In this document: piece by piece, positions 30,207 through 52,840 of the stretch
Numbering within the stretch: position 1 is the stretch's first letter
Layout of the letters: each line of letters opens with the position of its first letter
DNA from: Norana najaformis
Taxonomy: Eukaryota; Annelida; Clitellata; Crassiclitellata; Hormogastridae
Reading direction: 5' to 3'
Length of the DNA stretch: 64,000 nt
Assembly: GCA_964023275.1 (NCBI GenBank)
Contig: OZ029925.1
Span: forward strand, 4,350,003-4,414,002
Notes under the pieces: generated by a model
Seen by the model: only the letters and a program-made list of their open reading frames with translations
What the model was told of the DNA's origin: nothing
Databases searched by the model: none
Program-made: the position numbers and the translations under genes

Positions 30207-30261
30207 ATGATCGAGATCAGATTCATACTACTGGCAACGATTCTGGTAGCCGCAGCTTCGG
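30207..30261 (+). CDS. Exon 1, signal peptide of mucin-like protein
   Basis: ATG at 30207 opens a hydrophobic 18-residue leader. Two donors overlap (gtcagt at 30262 and gtaaga at 30266); only the first matches the phase of the next exon. A 13-codon upstream frame starts at about 29986. Confidence 0.7.

Positions 30262-52840: not shown

Follow-up and report, generated by a model that had tools for sequence, protein, structure and literature searches.

The seven-exon gene and its predicted product

The window, by which we mean the whole 64,000-nucleotide stretch of DNA analysed here from contig 13 of the Norana najaformis genome, carries on its plus strand a set of segments from which a single protein can be assembled. 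An earlier note on this DNA had described it as a mucin-like membrane receptor put together from seven phase-compatible exons but listed no exon coordinates; we rebuilt the exon borders by reading the window sequence and joined the exons by script. The features of the gene model are as follows:

29935..29942, plus strand: possible TATA box, TATATAAA, approximately 270 bases 5' of the start codon
30207..30261, plus strand: exon 1, predicted signal peptide of 18 residues, ending in phase 1 with G; a like exon of equal end phase lies upstream of each of two paralogs
46470..46492, plus strand: exon 2, a 23-base microexon, phase 1 to 0
47624..47692, plus strand: exon 3, phase 0 to 0, with the conserved stretch QVVTVEL; based on the join and the paralog alignment
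48145..49108, plus strand: exon 4, phase 0 to 1; end of the N-module, Thr/Pro stalk, polybasic site and start of the C-module
48274..48945, plus strand: Thr/Pro stalk, 224 codons, chiefly a 15-base tandem array
48976..48987, plus strand: furin-type site RRKR behind the stalk, residues 327-330, located by script
50286..50356, plus strand: exon 5, phase 1 to 0; based on the join and the paralog alignment
51388..51582, plus strand: exon 6, phase 0 to 0; IYEGLP motif and membrane helix
51484..51555, plus strand: membrane helix (Kyte-Doolittle), residues ~427-450, followed by RKTR
52628..52840, plus strand: exon 7, tail of the window copy and stop codon

The seven GT-AG exons join to 1590 bases, giving 529 codons and one terminal stop at 52838-52840, which is the sole stop in the joined frame when the exon 1 donor is placed after 30261. 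Placing it after 30265 introduces 17 stops into the join, and the two donors score 3.4 and -0.5 bits respectively under a general donor matrix rather than one trained on the Norana najaformis genome. Exon 5 has an alternative start at 50313 that leaves the frame unchanged and is favoured over 50286 by the chain search described below. The word TATATAAA is one among 15 TATA-like words in the 64-kb window, and as such is weak evidence.

Based on Kyte-Doolittle hydropathy, by which alone the signal-like start and the membrane helix were called, and on amino acid composition, the joined protein shows in order a hydrophobic start, the Thr/Pro stalk, a single further hydrophobic helix bordered by a positive stop-transfer side, and a tail of 79 residues. 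This bears out the order given in the earlier note, corresponds to the type I layout of cell-surface mucin-like proteins, and supports the description of the product as a mucin-like membrane protein. The tail, which had been called acidic, is present, but with a net charge of -3 it is mildly so and the adjective holds weakly. All four cysteines of the protein (336, 372, 442 and 447) lie C-terminal to the RRKR site. A motif of the form R-X-K/R-R is found by eye at the equivalent place in all eight aligned family members, as expected of proprotein-convertase substrates.

The stalk itself contains 165 Thr and 46 Pro codons. Relative to the consensus unit, 12 of its 14 indels are multiples of three, whereas six other tandem arrays of the window, two of them free of indels, yielded 2 in 20. 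The count is weakened by the 3-base substructure of the unit, which could by itself favour 3-base slippage. Read in the coding frame, 16 of the 39 substitutions are synonymous, versus 7 and 3 in the other two frames, an excess that is small because the make-up of the array's own codons already predicts shares of 0.32, 0.20 and 0.16, or about 12.6, 7.8 and 6.3. The stalk thus holds some coding signal, if not much.

A paralogous family and the reality of the locus

A Thr-rich repeat lying amid unrelated splice-like signals could in principle produce such a join by accident, and the earlier note had argued that six junctions were unlikely to agree by chance. To evaluate this, we scored chains of exons on splice sites and amino acid composition in a chain search, with exon 4 held fixed and two intron costs used for the comparisons. 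At the two costs, chains as good as the best upstream one arose in 36 and 46 of the 150 block shuffles, and 10 and 19 of the 36 other segments of the genome equalled it as well. As shuffles match it so often, the upstream exons (1-3) are on this sequence alone indistinguishable from chance, even though, at each of five search settings, exon 1 came out as the best start resembling a signal peptide. Conversely, the best downstream chain holding the membrane helix was equalled by none of the 150 shuffles at either cost. Of 111 other genomic segments, 10 and 8 equalled it; those that did so at the first cost fall on an 884-residue open frame, a stretch ending in the ORF at 60.4 kb, and minus-strand stretches at 58.6-63.7 kb and 32.6-36.0 kb. 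The improbability claimed for the junctions therefore fails for the upstream half of the gene. A generic gene search of the whole window did not return the gene as a unit, preferring other chains on both strands; parts of the mucin-like gene entered its chains when the intron cost was low. In DNA rich in repeats, then, compatible phases among exons are by themselves no proof of a gene.

The deciding evidence comes from relatives elsewhere in the genome (608 Mb in 17 contigs). With the stalk-free joined protein as query we recovered its own exons 3-7. Weak matches came from two places on contig 4, at E 0.3 and 1.7, and from another on contig 17 at E 2.5. The contig-4 places prove to be open frames of like plan, with the pattern NRTA..YREV..KILEYLNRRK, followed by a stretch that is short or Thr-rich, then several Arg in a row and VIYTEEDL.FIEN...EIDENGILRISL.L. 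A query with their post-stalk region returned at least 11 places, namely eight on contig 4, which span at most 100 kb and lie on one strand throughout, two on contig 10, and the window itself (E 2.7). Queries with exon 3 and exon 6 returned at least seven and at least eight places respectively, all inside the known clusters save one exon-6 match on contig 8; the only long plus-strand frame at the latter is a poly-Leu repeat, and we took this match as chance. A further query from contig 10 gave at least nine places, comprising seven known ones and weak places on contigs 8 and 11 (E 2.5 and 2.8). As these searches score only the best candidates, the number of places in the family is a lower bound.

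Exons 3-6 could be read in seven of the ten paralogs. The seven exons of contig-4 copy e, the last of them a tentative pick, join to encode 309 amino acids, and their start phases (0,1,0,0,1,0,0) are those of the window. Contig-10 copy a agrees with the window in the phases of exons 1-6; exons 2-6 of contig-10 copy b fit if exon 2, whose preceding exon 1 is unread, is assumed to start in phase 1, and its tentatively picked exon 7 begins in phase 2. In the other four paralogs the exon lengths fit the window phases for exons 3-5. A signal-peptide exon lies upstream of both contig-10 copy a and contig-4 copy e, to which these exons were assigned by proximity; both end in phase 1, with G before GTAAGT. 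The microexon has counterparts in three paralogs, each of 17 bases between CAG and GTAAGT. Contig-4 copies d and f, partly read and with the first part of exon 4 replaced, were kept out of the alignments; copy c of this contig entered the exon 6 alignment only, from which copies a and b were omitted on account of a frame change.

Single-sequence searches between the window and its paralogs are weak, as the E-values above indicate, and it is the profile that is strong. A profile of seven paralogs with the window row removed matches the stalk-free domain of the window at 53.3 bits (E 1.3e-18, single sequence), where the best of 4630 shuffles scored, out of 5000 made, reaches 14.9 bits; the underlying alignment was originally built with the window present, which may slightly help the window's score. 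The sharing of exons and phases by the paralogs is the decisive support for a real gene and, together with this profile match, makes accidental assembly very improbable overall, despite the frequency with which shuffles match the upstream chain and the preference of the generic search for other chains. In our view the profile excludes chance for exons 3-6, with exons 1, 2 and 7 resting on the layout. Hence, the proposal of one gene from seven AG/GT-bordered segments is confirmed, with its single stop and its paralogs of identical phase. We propose that the window contains a real seven-exon gene for a type I membrane protein, belonging to a family with at least 11 places in the genome, and put the probability of this reading at about 0.82. 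Judged from the sequences, the family plan is a signal peptide, an N-module, a Thr-rich stalk of greatly varying length, a polybasic (furin-type) site, a C-module, one membrane helix and a variable tail. What had been a prediction on paper thereby becomes a defined gene family with testable paralogs.

The copies differ considerably from one another. Exon 4 ranges from 292 bases in contig-10 copy a to 964 in the window, and nearly all of this difference is stalk. The tail, of 79 residues in the window, is only about 20 residues long in contig-4 copy e (tentative last exon), and the label "receptor" in the earlier note is not borne out. Contig-4 copies a (L033 9720-9890) and b (L015 2668-2860) share a similar frame change in the membrane exon, which terminates the protein inside the helix or directly after it and removes the cytoplasmic tail, so that these copies may be either broken or tail-less. 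In contig-4 copies d (L017 6541-7200) and f (L019 7321-8000) the start of exon 4 is replaced by unrelated sequence, which by eye looks alike between the two. Among five contig-4 copies dN/dS ranges from 0.48 to 1.48 (ten pairs, 273 bases), values that point to fast or relaxed change and are no proof of constraint or purifying selection. With stalks of about 30 to more than 200 residues and two copies that are possibly tail-less, the family offers a natural series on stalk length and the convertase site.

Alternatively, the family could be real while its member in the window is a duplicate that has fallen silent or is decaying, rather than an active gene. The weak exon 5 acceptor and exon 6 donor of the window copy, its repeat-rich first intron of 16 kb, and the frame change in the two contig-4 copies would all be compatible with this, as would the behaviour of exon 7, which at E <= 0.001 finds only itself in its own genome and no relative of the window tail. 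Yet 529 codons run over seven exons free of any inner stop, the indels of the stalk are largely frame-keeping, and the exon 6 donors of the paralogs read are weak-looking too (GTTTTT, GTTAGT and GTCAGT), such that a weak donor here may be a family trait. We accordingly regard a silent locus as unlikely and retain the reading as a gene.

Relationship to known domains and a possible mode of action

None of the eight family members, the window protein among them, has a Pfam model above cut-off, the best sub-threshold matches being a partial death effector domain (E 0.0085) and, for the membrane part, one at E 0.011. Searches of the PDB gave no convincing chain (best E 0.33), and tblastn with exon 6 against genome-contig and viral-contig collections found no relative. 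A phage match of exon 7 (L001) consists of 23 residues inside a phage-like ORF and was taken as chance; a match of the post-stalk stretch (L002) spans 15 residues. The ten further places in the genome and the lack of Pfam and PDB matches support the earlier suggestion of a real gene of an unrecognised family, in the sense of one undescribed in these two libraries.

In terms of architecture, the closest parallels are with proteins that are cleaved near the membrane. With the MUC1-type mucins the window protein shares a signal peptide, a Thr-rich tandem stalk, a cleavage-type site, a single membrane helix and a cytoplasmic tail. However, in the window protein neither the juxtamembrane SEA domain that is cleaved in those mucins nor a G-SVVV motif is detectable; its site is polybasic and stands directly behind the stalk, and an additional conserved module precedes the stalk. 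The heterodimerisation (HD) domain of Notch likewise comes with a juxtamembrane furin-type site, a strand-helix-strand-like stretch and a membrane helix; unlike Notch, the window protein lacks EGF and LNR repeats and any sequence match, and has a mucin stalk before the site. Dystroglycan offers a parallel with its mucin stretch, SEA-like part and two-part protein, but the window protein is by far the smaller of the two and matches no Pfam model. A mucin-like surface protein cut near the membrane is a known type, of which the variant here has a conserved module on both sides of a hypervariable stalk.

These parallels raise the possibility that the two modules constitute one split fold of the SEA or Notch-HD sort, interrupted by the stalk and the site after its first helix and before its second strand, and that the protein is a two-chain switch released by force or ligand. 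The order of elements, with the topology guessed by eye, would suit this proposal: a strand in exon 3, a helix in exon 4, the stalk and polybasic site followed by strands in the same exon, a helix in exon 5, and a strand plus the membrane helix in exon 6. SEA-like juxtamembrane domains are reported to be able to serve as proteolytic switches (PMC6586460), and furin cleavage is reported within the SEA domains of Notch-2 and human GPR126 (PMC6954182).

Against this, Pfam profiles for SEA and NOD/NODP had no match at E <= 1 in any of the eight members, the PDB profile search contained no SEA- or Notch-HD-type protein at E <= 10, and hhalign comparisons to the MUC1 SEA domain and to a Notch1 HD sequence fell below the best of 30 shuffles each. 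A genome search with PF07684 found nine NODP places, with none of the family loci among them. A G-SVVV-type autoproteolysis site is, by eye, absent from all eight aligned rows. Moreover, a cut at the polybasic site would precede strand 2, in contrast to the known cases, where it falls between strands 2 and 3 (PMC6954182). As every sequence test was negative, we do not file the family under either domain: sequence and profile searches give no membership in SEA (PF01390), nor do profiles in the Notch HD (PF06816/PF07684, the genome scan being with PF07684 only). The split fold, taken jointly with the switch, is in our estimate rather unlikely, and we keep it as a rival reading.

Returning to the reading as a type I mucin-like protein, we envisage that the product would reach the cell surface, where its stalk would be O-glycosylated and stand out as a mucin brush. 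A furin-like convertase might then cut behind the stalk to yield a two-part or shed surface mucin; judging from the motif, we consider the odds of such cleavage to be roughly even. Given that no cysteine of the window protein lies N-terminal of the cut, after cleavage the mucin part would either stay attached to the membrane part through non-covalent contacts or be shed; retention of the brush could be the task of the conserved modules. Such a protein could serve as a barrier, in lubrication or in recognition at the surface, and its exposed parts would be those that change fast. The family is small and fast-changing, with copies on two chromosomes of the animal besides that of the window. More speculatively still, and with somewhat less confidence than we accord the split fold, one could picture a fast-evolving, tandemly duplicated family in which a mucin stalk and a furin site divide a juxtamembrane domain. 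The length-variable brush would be clipped in by the non-covalent halves of that domain and set free by force or ligand, and there would be free change in copy number, in the length of the stalk and in the tail, much as families for self/non-self or pathogen recognition show.

Other features of the window and the genome

Several further features surround the mucin-like gene. The 884-residue open frame lies at 7355-10009 on the plus strand; it is rich in Asp and Ser, has no Pfam match above cut-off, and contains tandem repeats whose lengths (462, 228, 63 and 42 bases) are each divisible by three. It is probably a second gene or a large exon. Beyond it, positions 10203-18950 are occupied by an 8.7-kb satellite of approximately 128 copies of a 68-base unit.

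On the minus strand, exon-like open stretches at 54988-55242 and at about 59.4-62.0 kb converge on the 3' end of the mucin-like gene and look like exons of a minus-strand gene; for the piece at 55 kb, Pfam gave nothing at E <= 1 and the PDB nothing convincing. Between these, on the plus strand at 56255-56646, about three near-identical tandem units of 125 bases contain three full type-P1 twister ribozymes above the Rfam gathering score, and the array resembles the retrozyme type of self-cleaving ribozyme repeat. Elsewhere in the genome, four pieces resembling COX1 lie at 412-571 kb of contig 15; all contain stops when read in the standard code, and they are probably copies of mitochondrial DNA in the nucleus.
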